NCBI GenBank assembly: GCA_947491985.1 | Contig: CANLLR010000008.1 | Span: forward strand, 21,093 to 85,092 | Origin: Flavobacteriaceae bacterium | GTDB lineage: Bacteria; Bacteroidota; Bacteroidia; Flavobacteriales; Flavobacteriaceae | Reading direction: 5' to 3' | DNA: 64,000 nucleotides | Part shown: piece by piece, positions 7,091 to 64,000 of the stretch | Numbering within the stretch: the first letter of the stretch is position 1 | How the letters are laid out: each line of letters opens with the position of its first letter | Notes under the pieces: generated by a model | What the model was told of the DNA's origin: nothing | Databases searched by the model: none | The model's input: only the letters and a program-made list of their open reading frames with translations | Program-made: the position numbers and the translations under genes

Positions 7091-7161
7091 TGAATTATGA
7101 GTTATAAATTATGAATGACAAAAGTAGCATTTTCTAATTTACGATTCACCATTACAATTGG
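7091..7161. repeat. Heptameric array pair in the DAHPS/CM-rsgA spacer
   Basis: tgaatta/tgagtta/taaatta/tgaatga at 7091-7118 and ctaattt/acgattc/accatta/caattgg at 7134-7161. Confidence 0.7.
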
Positions 7162-8237
7162 TTAATAATTTTTTCTTGGTGCGAAATACTTTCTTGGTGA
7201 ATGGCTTTAAACAATTTGAGAATAAATTCTTCGCTCAACCCTTTTTCTTCGCCATCGAGTATCATTTTACCCAAAATTTCATTCCACCTTTTGTTTTGTA
7301 AAACGGCAACATTTTTAGCTTTTTTTAGCGCTCCAATTTGTTCCGCAACTTTCATTCGGTTGCCTAAAATTTCCAACAACTTACTGTCGGCAATGTCAAT
7401 ATTGGCTCTCAATTTTATCATTTCGGTATTAAAATCATCTTCTTCCACGGTAATTTTTTTAACTTTCAAATCTTTAAAAATTTGTTTTAAAACCGTTGGT
7501 GTTACTTGTTGTGCGGCGTCACTCCAGGCATTGTCGGGGTCGGTATGTGTTTCGATTATAAGTCCGTCGTAATTCAAGTCGAGTGCTTGTTGCGACACTT
7601 CCTGAATCATACTTCGTTTACCTGTAATGTGTGATGGATCGCAAATTAAAGGCAAATCGGGAAAACGACTTTGCAATTCGATGGCGATTTGCCATTCGGG
7701 AATGTTTCGGTATTTTGTTTTTTCGTAGGTTGAAAATCCGCGATGGATTACGCCTAATTTTTTTATTCCAGCATTATACAAACGTTCAACACCACCAATC
7801 CACAGCGCCAAATCAGGATTCACCGGATTTTTCACCAATACAATTTTATCGGTTCCAGCCAAAGCATCAGCAATTTCTTGAACTGCAAACGGATTTACGG
7901 TGGTTCGGGCGCCAATCCACAACACATCAATATCGTGTTCCAAAGCTAATTTGACATGTGTTGCATTGGCGACTTCGGTAGCCATTAACAAACCTGTTTC
8001 GGCTTTTGCCTTTTGAAGCCATTTGAGCCCGATAGCACCAACACCTTCAAATCCGCCCGGACGTGTTCGAGGTTTCCAAATTCCAGCGCGGTAAATACTC
8101 ACATCCGAATTTTTCAACTCGTGTGCAATTTTCAATACTTGCTCTTCGGTTTCGGCACTACATGGTCCGGCAATGACCAATGGATGTGATAAGTGAAAAT
8201 CATTCAACCACGTTTTCATTTCTTTATTGTTTTCCAT
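7152..8237 (-). CDS. Bifunctional 3-deoxy-7-phosphoheptulonate synthase / chorismate mutase
   Basis: AGPCSAETEEQVL, RAGIWKPRTRPGGFEGVG, CDPSHITGKRS, C-terminal AroQ-like LRANIDIADSKLLEILGNRMKVAEQIGALKK; start placed at MENNKEMKTW. Confidence 0.95.
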   Translation of the reverse strand: MENNKEMKTWLNDFHLSHPLVIAGPCSAETEEQVLKIAHELKNSDVSIYRAGIWKPRTRPGGFEGVGAIGLKWLQKAKAETGLLMATEVANATHVKLALEHDIDVLWIGARTTVNPFAVQEIADALAGTDKIVLVKNPVNPDLALWIGGVERLYNAGIKKLGVIHRGFSTYEKTKYRNIPEWQIAIELQSRFPDLPLICDPSHITGKRSMIQEVSQQALDLNYDGLIIETHTDPDNAWSDAAQQVTPTVLKQIFKDLKVKKITVEEDDFNTEMIKLRANIDIADSKLLEILGNRMKVAEQIGALKKAKNVAVLQNKRWNEILGKMILDGEEKGLSEEFILKLFKAIHQESISHQEKIINQL

Positions 8238-8244
8238 AATTTTT

Positions 8245-8335
8245 AGCTGTAGGCTATAAGCTGTAAGCCTTATGCGAAAAGCAACCATTTACATTTTGAT
8301 TTGCTCACTGCCTATTGCTTATAGCTTATAGCTAT
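8245..8335. repeat. Inverted pair of heptameric arrays in the tyrA-DAHPS/CM spacer
   Basis: agctgta/ggctata/agctgta/agcctta at 8245-8272 versus ttgctca/ctgccta/ttgctta/tagctta/tagctat at 8301-8335; the two halves are largely reverse-complementary. Confidence 0.85.
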
Positions 8336-9171
8336 TTTAATATCTCTTTAATTCGATTCGTATTTTCCATTTCATTATATACTTCTTCAAAATTATCGTT
8401 TTCGAGTAAGTTTTTAAAATGAGTTAAATTCAGAATGTATTCGTTCAATGATTTGACGACTTGCTTTTTATTTTGGTTAAAAATAGGCGTCCACATAGCT
8501 GGAGAACTTTTAGCTAATCGCACCGTACTTTCAAACCCAGAACCCGCCATATCAAAAATATCTTGCTCGTATTTTTCTTTTCCGATAACGGTTTTACCGA
8601 GCATAAAGGAACTGATGTGCGACAAATGGGATACGTATGCAATGTGCTTGTCGTGGGATTTTGGGTCCATGTAACGAATTCGCAATCCTAATTTTCGAAA
8701 CAATTCCATCGCTCGTTGTTGCAACTTAAACGTTGTTTTCTCTACTTCACAAATGATATTTGTTTTTCCTTCAAACAATCCTTTAATGGCAGCATTTGGT
8801 CCCGAAAATTCGGTTCCTGCAATTGGATGCGTTGCCATAAAATTGCGTCTTTTCGGATGATTTGCTACCAATTCACAAATGGGTAATTTGGTCGAACCTA
8901 CATCAAAAACCAGCGTATTATCGCTTATCGCATCCAAAATTTGAGGTAAAAGTACTAAACCCACATCAACTGGCACAGCTACAATAATTAAATTTGCATT
9001 AATTAAATCTTCTTCAGATGCCTTTTGGTCGATAAGTTGCAAATGTAGTGCTTCTTCCAAATGTTTTTCGTTTGAGTCGCTTCCGAGAACGGTTACTTTG
9101 TCATACATCGATCTAATGTCGAGCGCCATCGAACCTCCTATCAAACCTAATCCTATAATTACTACTTTCAT
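8332..9171 (-). CDS. tyrA: Prephenate dehydrogenase
   Basis: MKVVIIGLGLIGGSMALDI, DVGSTKLPI, ATHPIAGTEFSGP. Confidence 0.9.
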   Translation of the reverse strand: MKVVIIGLGLIGGSMALDIRSMYDKVTVLGSDSNEKHLEEALHLQLIDQKASEEDLINANLIIVAVPVDVGLVLLPQILDAISDNTLVFDVGSTKLPICELVANHPKRRNFMATHPIAGTEFSGPNAAIKGLFEGKTNIICEVEKTTFKLQQRAMELFRKLGLRIRYMDPKSHDKHIAYVSHLSHISSFMLGKTVIGKEKYEQDIFDMAGSGFESTVRLAKSSPAMWTPIFNQNKKQVVKSLNEYILNLTHFKNLLENDNFEEVYNEMENTNRIKEILK

Positions 9172-9315: not shown

Positions 9316-10467
9316 TTAATTTGTAATTCTCAAAATTGCTTCTTTTATTTTTTCTTCTTTCACACATAAAGAAAACCGAATATAGCCTTCGCCATTGCTG
9401 CCAAAAATGGTTCCCGGTGTGATGAACATATGCTTTTCATGCAAAATTTTATCTATAAAAACTTCAGCAGATTGTATTTCTTTGGGAAGTTTTGCCCATA
9501 CGAACAATCCGACCGAATTTCTATGGAACTTACATTGTAATTTTTCGGCCAATTCAAACATCAAATTGCGTCTTTTGGCATACACTTCATTTTGACTTTG
9601 AAACCAACTGGTTCCCAATTGCAATGCGGCAATAGCACCTTTTTGTATGCCATAAAACATACCACTGTCCATGTTGCTTTTTACTTTTAAAATAGCGTTG
9701 ACAAAATTCGAATTTCCGCACACCATGCCTACACGCCAACCTGCCATATTGTAGGTTTTGGAAAGCGAATTTAATTCTAGCGCTACTTCTTTTGCGCCAG
9801 CTACTTGCAAAATTGAAAGCGGATTTTGGTTTAAAACAAAGCTATACGGATTGTCATTTACAATTAAAATGTGGTGTTTTTTGCCAAAGGCAATTAGTTT
9901 TTGATACAACTCTAAAGTACCATTGGCACCTGTTGGCATGTGGGGATAACTCACCCACATAAGTTTTACTTTCGACAAATCGAGTAGCTCCAATTGATCA
10001 AAATTGGGTTGCCAATTCGTTGCTTCTTTTAAATCATAATACACCGCTTTTGCTTGAACAAGATGGGTTACTGATGCATACGTTGGATAACCCGGATTAG
10101 GAATAAGCACTTCGTCGCCTTCATTTAAAAACGCCATGGCTATGTGCATGATGCCTTCTTTGGAGCCCATTAAAGGTAAAATTTCTGAAGTAAAATCTAA
10201 TACTACACCAAAATGCTCTTGGTAAAAATTAGCCATTCCTTTACGCAAATCGGGCAAGCCTTGATAGCTTTGATATTCGTGTGCCTTTGCATCAAACATA
10301 GCGTTTTGAATCGCTTCAATAACGGTCGCATCGGGTGCTAAATCGGGACTACCTATTCCCATATTTATAATGGGTTTGCCTTCAGAAAGCAACTGATTGA
10401 CTTCGCGTAATTTTTTTGAGAAATAGTATTCCTCTACAGTGTGTAATCTATTGGCAGTTGTTATCAT
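9316..10467 (-). CDS. Pyridoxal phosphate-dependent aminotransferase (class I/II), probably aromatic/aspartate type
   Basis: LNSLSKTYNMAGWRVGMVCGN PLP-lysine motif, NPGYPTYASVT; embedded in the aromatic operon. Confidence 0.9.
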   Translation of the reverse strand: MITTANRLHTVEEYYFSKKLREVNQLLSEGKPIINMGIGSPDLAPDATVIEAIQNAMFDAKAHEYQSYQGLPDLRKGMANFYQEHFGVVLDFTSEILPLMGSKEGIMHIAMAFLNEGDEVLIPNPGYPTYASVTHLVQAKAVYYDLKEATNWQPNFDQLELLDLSKVKLMWVSYPHMPTGANGTLELYQKLIAFGKKHHILIVNDNPYSFVLNQNPLSILQVAGAKEVALELNSLSKTYNMAGWRVGMVCGNSNFVNAILKVKSNMDSGMFYGIQKGAIAALQLGTSWFQSQNEVYAKRRNLMFELAEKLQCKFHRNSVGLFVWAKLPKEIQSAEVFIDKILHEKHMFITPGTIFGSNGEGYIRFSLCVKEEKIKEAILRITN

Positions 10468-10532: not shown

Positions 10533-11375
10533 TCAACGTATTAACTTATTTTCATATTCGCCCAAGACTTTAAAATGATTGGTCATAATTTGGAGAATTT
10601 GGGTTGCTTTTTCATAGTGCTTGTACTTTTTGAAAACCACATCTACAAAAAAAGAATACCAAAATGGCTTGATGATTATTGGCATCAACTGAATCTTGGT
10701 GAAGTTCAATTTGCAATTGGTCATGACATTTAAAACGGTCGCCAAACTTCCGGACGTATCATCCAATTCAAATTTTAAGGAAGTTTTGTTTATGGATTCT
10801 TTTGCTTTTGAATTGGATTTTGTGCTCAAAATAAAAAACCGCGTCATGTTGTTATTTATCGTTTGAATTTCGGGTGCGACAATGGTCAAATCATATAATT
10901 GAGCGGCTGTCTTACTGGCTATAGCCGCGATTCCTTTTAGTTTGTTTTGGTGAATGCGACGCGCAGTTTCTGCAGTATCTTTGTCTTCAACGAGTTTGAT
11001 ATGCGGATGCTTTTTTAAAAAATCCATACATTGTAATAACGCCATAGGATGCGAATGTACTTCCTGAATTTCGTTTAATTGTTGTCCGTTTAACACCATT
11101 AAATTTTGAATACTATCCAAATAATATTCGCCGATAATGTGTAAGTCATGCTTATCAATTAAAGCATAATTGGGAATGATAGCGCCTACAATCGAGTTTT
11201 CAATTGCCATAACAGCCAACTGCGAATGGTTGTTTATCAAACTAGCAACGAGTGTTTCAAACGACAAACATTCGTTTACTTGAACATTTTCTTGAAAATA
11301 TTCTAGCGCTACTTGATGATGGAAGGACCCTTTAATGCCATGTATTGCTATCTTTTTTTCCATATTGTTTTTCAA
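10533..11375 (-). CDS. pheA: Prephenate dehydratase
   Basis: IAHGIKGSFHHQVALEYF-like N-terminus (seen as IAIHGIKGSFHHQVALEYF), IENSIVGAI, C-terminal ACT-like domain (KFELDDTSGSLATVLNVMTNCKLNFTKIQLMPI). Confidence 0.92.
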   Translation of the reverse strand: MKNNMEKKIAIHGIKGSFHHQVALEYFQENVQVNECLSFETLVASLINNHSQLAVMAIENSIVGAIIPNYALIDKHDLHIIGEYYLDSIQNLMVLNGQQLNEIQEVHSHPMALLQCMDFLKKHPHIKLVEDKDTAETARRIHQNKLKGIAAIASKTAAQLYDLTIVAPEIQTINNNMTRFFILSTKSNSKAKESINKTSLKFELDDTSGSLATVLNVMTNCKLNFTKIQLMPIIIKPFWYSFFVDVVFKKYKHYEKATQILQIMTNHFKVLGEYENKLIR

Positions 11376-11449: not shown

Positions 11450-11477
11450 AAAAAAAATCCCGATTTACATCGGGATT
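11450..11477 (-). terminator. Attenuator terminator hairpin of the phe/tyr operon leader
   Basis: Minus strand AATCCCGAT-GTAA-ATCGGGATT: 9-bp perfect stem, 4-nt loop, then T8. Confidence 0.9.
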
Positions 11478-11499
11478 GTCTATTTATGTTGTACTTAAT

Positions 11500-11589
11500 T
11501 TATTTCTTAATATAACACAATACCAATCCCTTTCTTTTCCAAAAAAAGAAATATGAGAAATTGTTATAATACGTTACAAATTTTGACAT
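11500..11589 (-). CDS. Aromatic-residue-rich leader peptide MSKFVTYYNNFSYFFFWKRKGLVLCYIKK
   Basis: 29 codons with F, YY, F, YFFFW; stop about 20 bp ahead of the terminator; contains antiterminator GGGATTG complementary to the terminator 5' arm. Confidence 0.85.
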   Translation of the reverse strand: MSKFVTYYNNFSYFFFWKRKGLVLCYIKK

Positions 11590-11738
11590 TGGTGGTTTTT
11601 GTGTTTTGCTAATGTAGAAAAATAATATATAGGTTTTACAAAAGTGAAGTAAAAAAGTTGCGGAAACGTTTTCGTAAATCATAAAATTTACCATTTCTCG
11701 TTATCCTTTTTAGGTTTCAAAAATCCTTTAGTATTTAT

Positions 11739-11762: not shown

Positions 11763-12665
11763 ATGTCAATAGAAGTTCAAAATATATCCAAAAGTTACGG
11801 CACTCAAAAAGCATTGGACTCGGTTTCGTTTTCGGTAAAAAAGGGAGAAATTGTAGGGTTCTTGGGTCCGAATGGCGCCGGAAAATCGACTTTAATGAAA
11901 ATCCTCACGACGTATCTCAATGCGGATGAAGGTAGGGCTTTGGTGAACGGACATGATGTAAACGACAATCAAAAAGCCGTACAGCTTTCGGTTGGCTATT
12001 TGCCCGAGCACAATCCGTTGTATTTGGATTTGTATGTGAGAGAATATTTGGCTTTTAATGCTGATGTTTATAAAACAGCCAAATCACGTATTGAAGAAGT
12101 TATTCAATTGACTGGATTATCAGCAGAAAGTCATAAAAAAATTGGACAACTTTCAAAAGGATATCGCCAGCGTGTGGGTTTAGCAACAGCTTTGTTACAC
12201 AATCCAGATGTGTTGATTTTGGATGAACCGACTACAGGTTTAGATCCGAATCAATTGGTTGAAATTCGAAACGTGATCAAAAACGTTGGCAAAAACAAAA
12301 CGGTTTTCCTATCTACACACATTATGCAAGAAGTGGAAGCGATTTGCGACCGTGTGATTATTATTGACAACGGCAAAATTGTAACTGATAAAAAATTGGA
12401 CAAATTGGTTTCCGAAATCAAAGAACAAGTGATTGAGGTCGAATTTGACAAAGTGATTGACGAAACGCTTTTTTCTAAATTTCCGAATTTACTTTCGTAC
12501 AGAAATACACATGAAAATGTATGGGAACTGACTTTTGAAACGGAAAGCGATGCGCGTTCGAGTGTTTTTGATTTTGCTCAAAATAACGGATTAAAAACAC
12601 TACAATTGAGTTTGAAAAGCAAAAACTTGGAAGCGATTTTTAGAGAAAAAACCTCTAAGAATTAG
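11763..12665 (+). CDS. gldA: Gliding motility-associated ABC transporter ATP-binding subunit
   Basis: GPNGAGKSTLMKIL, LSKGYRQRVGLA, DEPTTGLDPNQLVEIR; GldA-like length and N-terminus MSIEVQNISKSYGTQKALD. Confidence 0.88.
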   Translation: MSIEVQNISKSYGTQKALDSVSFSVKKGEIVGFLGPNGAGKSTLMKILTTYLNADEGRALVNGHDVNDNQKAVQLSVGYLPEHNPLYLDLYVREYLAFNADVYKTAKSRIEEVIQLTGLSAESHKKIGQLSKGYRQRVGLATALLHNPDVLILDEPTTGLDPNQLVEIRNVIKNVGKNKTVFLSTHIMQEVEAICDRVIIIDNGKIVTDKKLDKLVSEIKEQVIEVEFDKVIDETLFSKFPNLLSYRNTHENVWELTFETESDARSSVFDFAQNNGLKTLQLSLKSKNLEAIFREKTSKN

Positions 12666-19603: not shown

Positions 19604-19627
19604 TTGTTTTAAAAATGAATAGTAACT

Positions 19628-19736
19628 AGCCCTGATAGGAGTGGAAATCCTTTTTCTCGGTTTTCGATACTCGTTTTTTAAGCGAACTCGAACTGACGAG
19701 AAAAAGATTGCAACGCATAGCAGGAATAGCTTCTGA
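19628..19736 (+). repeat. Structured dispersed repeat, copy 2
   Basis: AGCCCTGATAGGAGTGGAAATCC; stem CTTTTTCTCG (19650-19659) / CGAGAAAAAG (19697-19706); AGATTGCAACGCATAGCAGGAATAGCTTCT. Confidence 0.85.
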
Positions 19737-19794
19737 AAATTCAGAAAGTTCTTAAAAAAAATATGTTATCGTGGAAAGTGAGAATATTCTCGTG

Positions 19795-19897
19795 GTTATC
19801 TTTGCTTAAATTGCTTTAAACTAGAATGTAGCACCTTCTACAGGGGTAGGGTTGCTAAGCTTTCGTCGGGTCTATTCCCTCGGGCTTTCGTGATAAC
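19795..19897 (-). ncRNA. SAM-I (S-box) riboswitch upstream of metH
   Basis: Minus strand GTTATCACGAAAGCCCGAGGGAATAGACCCGACGAAAGCTTAGCAACCCTACCCCTGTAGAAGGTGCTACATTC...AGATAAC: matches the GAGGGA..GACCC..GA.GAAAGC..AGCAACC..AAGGTGCTA core, with P1 closed by GTTATC/GATAAC. Confidence 0.93.
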
Positions 19898-19970
19898 AAT
19901 CAATAAATTTATGAACACTGCAAAGTAATAACATAGAATTGTTTTTTGCAACTGTTTTGGTAAAAATAAA

Positions 19971-22050: not shown

Positions 22051-22063
22051 CACACGAAAATAC

Positions 22064-22114
22064 AAGAGGAAAAATTTGAACTGATTGCAACCTCGTAAAA
22101 AAATGCTAAAGCAA
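22064..22114 (+). ncRNA. SAM-II riboswitch upstream of metK
   Basis: GAGGAAAAATTTGAACTGATTGCAACCTCGTAAAAAAATGCTAAAG: P1 GAGG/CCTC, ATTTGAAC, TTGCA, GTAAAAAAA, GCTAAAG as in the SAM-II pseudoknot consensus. Confidence 0.85.
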
Positions 22115-22186
22115 CTTTTCTTCTTTAGTTTTTTACTGCGATTTCATATTTTTTTTTGTAAATTTTAATTTAAAAAATACAACAGT

Positions 22187-23657: not shown

Positions 23658-23813
23658 GAAAGCCAAAACCAATTTTGAAGTTTATATTTTATTTTCGACT
23701 TGCTTCGCGGCGGCGAAAATCCTTCTAAGATAATTCTGTAGTGAATAGATAATAAAATGGTATGAGGAGGATTCAGTGTTTTTTACTTTTTGTGTAAAGA
23801 CAAAAGAAGAAAT

Positions 23814-23881
23814 AGCCCTGATGGAAGCGGCATCCTTTTTGGAGCAAAGCGGAAAAAAGATATAGCGTACAGCAGGTTCTT
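23814..23881 (+). repeat. Structured dispersed repeat, copy 3 (short)
   Basis: AGCCCTGATGGAAGCGGCATCCTTTTTGGAGCAAAGCGGAAAAAAGATATAGCGTACAGCAGG. Confidence 0.85.
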
Positions 23882-23883
23882 GG

Positions 23884-45116: not shown

Positions 45117-45127
45117 ACTTTAAAGTT

Positions 45128-45237
45128 TAGCCCAGATAGAAGTGAAAATCCTTTTTATCATTTTCTGCTTACTCGATTTTAAGCGAACCTGATCTGACGA
45201 TAAAAAGATTGCAACGGATAGCTGGAAGTGGCTTCTA
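45128..45237 (+). repeat. Structured dispersed repeat, copy 4
   Basis: AGCCCAGATAGAAGTGAAAATCC; stem CTTTTTATC (45151-45159) / GATAAAAAG (45199-45207); ATTGCAACGGATAGCTGGAAGTGGCTTCTA. Confidence 0.87.
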
Positions 45238-63809: not shown

Positions 63810-63889
63810 AAGCTGAAATCTATTCCAAAGGTAAGCATTAGTAAATAATTTGGACCAAATGTTACAGAAATTCAAGACAAAAAATCGCT

Positions 63890-63966
63890 TAACCCTGATG
63901 GAGGGAATATCCTTTTTATTTTTTTTTGCAAAAAACAATAAAAAGATAGGACGAACAGCAAGAAAA
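63890..63966 (+). repeat. Structured dispersed repeat, copy 5
   Basis: AACCCTGATGGAGGGAATATCC; stem CTTTTTATT (63912-63920) / AATAAAAAG (63937-63945); ATAGGACGAACAGCA. Confidence 0.85.
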
Positions 63967-64000
63967 AGGAAAACAAAAATGCCTGCCCAATCGTTTCAAA

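Follow-up and report, generated by a model that had tools for sequence, protein, structure and literature searches.

A predicted ribosome-mediated transcription attenuator of the phe/tyr operon in a Flavobacteriaceae bacterium and its relatives in Bacteroidia

The pheA (pheL) attenuator of E. coli consists of a Phe-rich leader peptide, alternative hairpins and an intrinsic terminator that lies before pheA. In Bacteroid-trp RNA, a Trp leader precedes trp genes. The former is named in PMC1183508, and the latter (RF01692) was reported as a cis-regulatory RNA of Bacteroidetes (Weinberg 2010; PMC2864571). Furthermore, the main text of a 2021 transcriptome study of F. psychrophilum (PMC9723704) notes that pheA is preceded by a conserved 5' element that is structured and has no Rfam hits, and it reports clues to attenuation by leader peptides upstream of amino-acid operons. 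The element before pheA is very probably the one analyzed here, and the leader is present in F. psychrophilum. A sequence-only reading of the present locus had known of no characterized attenuator in Flavobacteria, a statement that is tempered by that structured element and those clues. For pheA, the main text of PMC9723704 describes neither a peptide nor helices, and neither their spacing nor their distribution; these are given here. What is new is the anatomy, a third helix, a spacing rule, stop codon classes, the distribution and a codon switch.

We analyzed a window of 64,000 nucleotides and found that direct reading with recomputed coordinates agreed base for base with the sequence-only reading for the aromatic leader ORF, the GGGATTG/CAATCCC pair and the terminator, all of which lie on the minus strand. 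The leader ORF, MSKFVTYYNNFSYFFFWKRKGLVLCYIKK (11500–11589), has 29 codons, ten of them aromatic. GGGATTG (region 2, 11524–11530) sits inside codons 20–22, as claimed, running from the third base of codon 20 through the end of codon 22. The intrinsic terminator identified by pattern scan and folding between the leader ORF and the first gene is AATCCCGAT-GTAA-ATCGGGATT (11456–11477; 9 bp with a loop of 4), followed by a U-tract at 11450–11455 that becomes the reported run of eight T when the last two stem bases are counted. Domain searches agree with the proposed gene order on the same strand: pheA, a prephenate dehydratase and the first gene predicted to be controlled (10533–11363; PF00800, E = 8e-54), a class I/II aminotransferase (9316–10467; PF00155), the prephenate dehydrogenase tyrA (8332–9171; NF006307, above cut-off) and a bifunctional DAHP synthase/chorismate mutase (7152–8237; PF00793 and PF01817). 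The upstream neighbor of the leader, a gldA-like ABC ATPase gene (11763–12665), is divergent, and the terminator therefore ends no annotated gene.

The locus resembles the pheL attenuator of E. coli and the enterobacteria in its Phe-rich leader, its alternative hairpins and the intrinsic terminator before pheA. On the other hand, the window leader mixes Tyr with Phe codons, matching an operon that includes tyrA, and it has no Shine–Dalgarno sequence. The Rfam Phe_leader model (RF01859) scored 16.9 bits against a gathering threshold of 55. Bacteroid-trp is a precedent within the phylum but differs in its operon and amino acids, and no match to RF01692 was found in the window or in the genome from which the window comes. 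Sub-threshold Rfam matches to MicC and Trp_leader (22.2 bits versus 41) were put down to chance or to resemblance between terminators. As possible sites of sister attenuators, hisG and full trpE were not found in the window's own genome (94% complete assembly); thus, the operon serves Phe and Tyr. This genome is likely that of a His and Trp auxotroph that has retained Phe/Tyr synthesis.

About 20 nt on the 5' side of the leader ORF lies TACATTAG (11609–11616, minus strand), which may serve as the −7 box of a sigma-A promoter of the Bacteroidota type; PMC9723704 gives the consensus of this box as TAnnTTTG. Of 120 relatives, 70 have a TAnnTT(T/A)G motif no more than 55 nt from the leader ATG on its 5' side, compared with 5% of shuffles. 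An E. coli-type promoter scan of the window is uninformative for Bacteroidota. The sequence on the 5' side of the leader ATG is A-rich and G-poor, and a Shine–Dalgarno-like motif occurs in only 1 of 120 Flavobacterium leaders, as expected for Bacteroidota (PMC9723704; PMC3155529).

How well is the leader conserved? Among 200 Flavobacterium genomes, 145 carried pheA, and the upstream DNA could be read for 129 of these. The full leader region and terminator were found in 120 of the 129; three more leaders were cut by contig ends with the terminator present, and the remaining six regions, which belong to a distant pheA type (43% identity), showed no terminator. All 120 full leaders contain, in the same place, an aromatic ORF of 14–35 codons (118 with ATG, 2 with GTG) with an average of 5.4 Phe, 2.8 Tyr and 0.4 Trp, so that a putatively translated ORF rich in codons for F and Y (and W) stands before pheA and tyrA. 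By comparison, only 1 of 2000 dinucleotide shuffles of the window leader had an ORF in place with at least 10 aromatic residues, and at least 7 such residues were present in 119 of 120 real leaders versus 30 of 2200 shuffles (of 44 representative leaders). The conservation of the aromatic run and of the alternative helices in relatives, on which the sequence-only reading had staked its case, is strong.

Could the ORF encode a small functional or merely incidental peptide, followed by an ordinary terminator that ends a short transcript or insulates pheA? Its retention in 120 of 120 leaders and the promoter-like box on its 5' side would fit such an arrangement, which we nevertheless regard as highly improbable. 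In the aligned core, codons 12–15 encode F or Y almost without exception, while codon 16 encodes F in 73 leaders and W in 37; the F/Y and F/W exchanges stay in frame and retain an aromatic residue. However, the residues after the core are not conserved, and their frame differs among clades (...KRKGLVLCYIKK in the window and ...SRSEDCAMVI or ...RK-stop elsewhere), whereas the GGGATTG-type bases are retained in nearly every Flavobacterium leader despite the frame switch. Judged by these exchanges, the core of the peptide is under coding selection and the remainder is not. In-frame exchange in the core, together with a frame switch beyond it that leaves the RNA intact, is what would be expected if the codons sense and the RNA switches.

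The RNA can be drawn as three mutually exclusive helices, 1:2, 2:3 and 3:4, as in the E. coli trp attenuator. Covariation shows that region 3 (CAATCCC, 11472–11478) is common to the antiterminator 2:3 and the terminator 3:4, which exclude each other. The alternative between these two had been correctly described at the outset, but the 1:2 protector had been missed. In this helix, region 1, CAATTTCT (11556–11563), pairs with AGGGATTG, as indicated by folding and conserved pairing, and folding adds an outer stem between 11570–11578 and 11511–11519; the protector overlaps the control codons. The energies of the three helices in the window are balanced (protector −14.4, antiterminator −14.1 and terminator −12.3 kcal/mol).

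Helix statistics were obtained from 44 representative Flavobacterium leaders (alignment A1) with slid and shuffled controls. Keeping in mind that kinship of the sequences inflates all shuffle and arm-swap statistics, the terminator was paired in 100% of cells, with 13 double-changed cells compared with 2.4 in shuffles, and the antiterminator was paired in 95.7%, with 9 double-changed cells compared with 2.3 in shuffles and slid controls of at most 60%. The protector was paired in 79.5% of cells (slid controls at most 67%), with a covariation of 0.258 compared with 0.216 in shuffles; at 20% unpaired cells, it is weaker in this respect than 2:3 and 3:4, and while its covariation score and double-changed cells exceeded those of the shuffles, its double-change pair count did not. 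Region 3 column 141, which is C or U, covaries with column 65 in region 2 and column 162 in region 4. In the ten leaders with U at this position, the partner is A in eight for region 2 (G-U in the other two) and A in nine for region 4, which ties helices 2:3 and 3:4 to one nucleotide, even though the changes in this column may represent few evolutionary events. RNAalifold on a plain MAFFT alignment detected the terminator only; it missed the protector because the outer stem shifts register between clades, and hence we used arm-swap tests and anti-diagonal counts. When the protector's own arms were compared with those of other leaders, z was −7 for the 44 Flavobacterium leaders, −15 for 82 leaders and −10 for 40 other genera, subject to the same inflation by kinship. 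The corresponding tests of 2:3 and 3:4 are biased because their arms were chosen by complementarity; these tests were discounted, and column covariation alone counts for both helices. Covariation among regions 1, 2 and 3 also speaks against the small-peptide explanation.

An E. coli ribosome covers about 15 nt on either side of its P site. With this footprint assumed, the placement of the control codons would free region 2 and block region 1. When F14, F15 or F16 of the aromatic core (Y13 F14 F15 F16 W17, 11539–11553, the main predicted stall sites from codon alignment and spacing) is in the A site, the computed ribosome edge falls at leader nt 52–58, just short of GGGATTG at nt 60–66, and the same ribosome covers region 1 (nt 27–34) mostly or wholly. 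Stalls at Y7, Y8, F11 and Y13 would likewise leave GGGATTG free and disrupt region 1. The idea that a stall in the aromatic run leaves GGGATTG free thus fits this geometry for all of these codons but not for W17, where the first bases of the motif would already be covered. Which codon is effective had been left open; the geometry points to F14, F15 or F16, along with Y7, Y8, F11 and Y13. Furthermore, in 85% of 82 leaders the last aromatic codon begins 10–14 nt ahead of region 2, a distance that fits the predicted leading edge of a stalled ribosome; the figure for shuffled peptides is 19%, while the position of the stop codon varies widely (sd 7–10 nt).

Could a ribosome at the stop codon mask region 2, as first proposed? 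In the window's species, it should not. Counted from the start of region 2, the stop codon is 28 nt further on, and a ribosome there should cover approximately leader nt 70–100, clear of GGGATTG at nt 60–66. Consequently, re-pairing of 1:2 must provide the protection. In most other Flavobacterium, masking fits the stop positions. Grouped by stop-to-terminator distance, the 120 Flavobacterium leaders fall into three classes, with the stop just before or at region 2 (class 1, ~32 leaders), ~12–23 nt past its start (class 2, ~65) or ~26–29 nt past it (class 3, the window's type, ~23). With a ribosome at the stop, region 2 should be hidden in class 1, at least partly hidden in class 2 and exposed in class 3. 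In part of the genus, the stop lies just before or at region 2 as in the E. coli trp attenuator, whereas in the window's clade it is too far downstream for a terminating ribosome to cover region 2. According to the Elf and Ehrenberg model (PMC1183508), ribosome release at the stop sets basal readthrough, and the stop classes should accordingly differ in basal readthrough, which is a prediction of this analysis.

Taken together, we assign a probability of about 93% to control of the phe/tyr operon by ribosome-mediated transcription attenuation. This reading rests on the conserved ORF, its aromatic codons, the three exclusive helices, the spacing and the Trp codon switch described below; from these, we infer ribosome stalling, termination, antitermination and the regulation itself. 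When charged tRNA-Phe or tRNA-Tyr is low, the ribosome trailing RNA polymerase would stall on the F/Y run and cover region 1, breaking the 1:2 helix and leaving region 2 free. Region 2 would then pair with region 3 before region 4 has been transcribed, blocking the terminator and allowing transcription of pheA, the aminotransferase, tyrA and the DAHPS gene. With an ample supply of the amino acids, on the other hand, the ribosome would continue, and region 2 would re-pair with region 1 or, where the stop is near, be covered by the ribosome; with region 2 sequestered, 3:4 would form and transcription would end. The classical phe/trp logic is thus upheld by conservation as far as attenuation goes but, in the window's species, not in its stop-masking step. 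The element follows the workings of a classical attenuator and is one by every sequence feature tested.

The same layout, with a different sequence, was present in 28 of 28 other Flavobacteriaceae genera examined, one example being the leader MITTTYFWNTYYFFYFFKRRMGLL with an AGTCCCG terminator arm. Peptide sequences diverge across genera while the aromatic content is kept, again unlike what a functional small peptide would suggest. The layout was found in 78 of 80 named loci, including those of Tenacibaculum, Capnocytophaga, Aquimarina and F. psychrophilum (L275, with the same leader), and extends to other families of the order and class (e.g., L166, L184, L185, L187 and L188) and to L186, which is placed outside the class. 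Same-phylum genomes whose pheA is ~30% identical did not show the layout. On this distribution, the textbook ribosome-stalling attenuator exists here in a genuine and old version that is specific to the phylum. At locus L178 (G522:C25), the 500 bases upstream of pheA apparently hold three tandem attenuator-like units, with peptides MKHITENKAFSFEAFFFNRKTQA, MNNLVSTFRFFGFFFFRKEGAMS and MNQNTQQNFSFFGFFFFKWKSEAVD and a terminator after each; the corresponding 500 bases at L189 (G576:C30) hold two, MAYRSAYYFYFFCFFSSCRG and MGYTYYYFFSLMDHRRLWVV, both of which have a terminator of their own.

What becomes of the leader when the pathway is reduced? In twenty Flavobacterium genomes that lack pheA, tyrA is also absent and DAHPS is kept; a full-length trpE-type gene occurs in four of them. 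One of the four (G022) is cut off upstream of DAHPS. In two of the three readable ones, DAHPS is immediately preceded by an attenuator of the same layout that contains Trp codons, namely in G011 (L223), with leader MKSISQNTWNTTLWFAWKSEQGLLCVN (shortened form MKSISQNTWNTTLWFAWK...), and G039 (L222), with leader MVATWWNTFPQG; the third, G060, has kept trpE and shows no leader at DAHPS. Among the weak matches of covariance model R1, the two strongest lay in pheA-less genomes and were real; the others that were inspected were ordinary terminators beside other genes. No intact aromatic leader was found before DAHPS in the genomes lacking pheA, tyrA and trpE: G001 has a decayed leader, MFSITLYSNSFHFLRKK..., further upstream, and G035 and G040 have the terminator only. 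The numbers are small, but they point the way expected of a sensor with codons matched to the end product, and an element that tracks pathway content is hard to reconcile with a small peptide. We lean towards an ancestral Bacteroidia aromatic-operon attenuator whose control codons were re-specified, being Phe and Tyr with pheA/tyrA and Trp before DAHPS after their loss, and which was discarded with trpE.

A riboswitch or RNA-binding regulator that senses aromatic amino acids, with the ORF secondary, would share the layout of a terminator with an alternative pairing, and PMC9723704 counts the pheA element as one of the structured 5' elements that lack Rfam hits. Such a sensor is nevertheless very unlikely, as no Rfam model scored above threshold, what is conserved is codon content and the complementarity of the helices in place of an aptamer core, and the codons go from F/Y to W with the pathway.

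Ribosome-mediated attenuation requires transcription and translation to be in step. Our literature search on transcription–translation coupling in Bacteroidetes found nothing direct. Conservation of the predicted attenuator across Bacteroidia, whose ribosomes generally do not use Shine–Dalgarno sequences, makes coupling testable at this leader with an F. johnsoniae reporter. The Phe/Tyr leader, Trp leader and lost leader form a natural series that tracks gene loss, and the RNA family is absent from Rfam.

Other regulatory RNAs lie in the same window. SAM-I (19793–19899, minus strand) and SAM-II (22060–22119, plus strand) riboswitches are less than 2.3 kb apart, so that one genome has both classes; metH and MTHFR-like genes are close by. 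Four matches to Flavo-1 RNA (RF01705) are found in the 64 kb, all on the plus strand (19624–19731, 23810–23883, 45125–45232 and 63887–63969).
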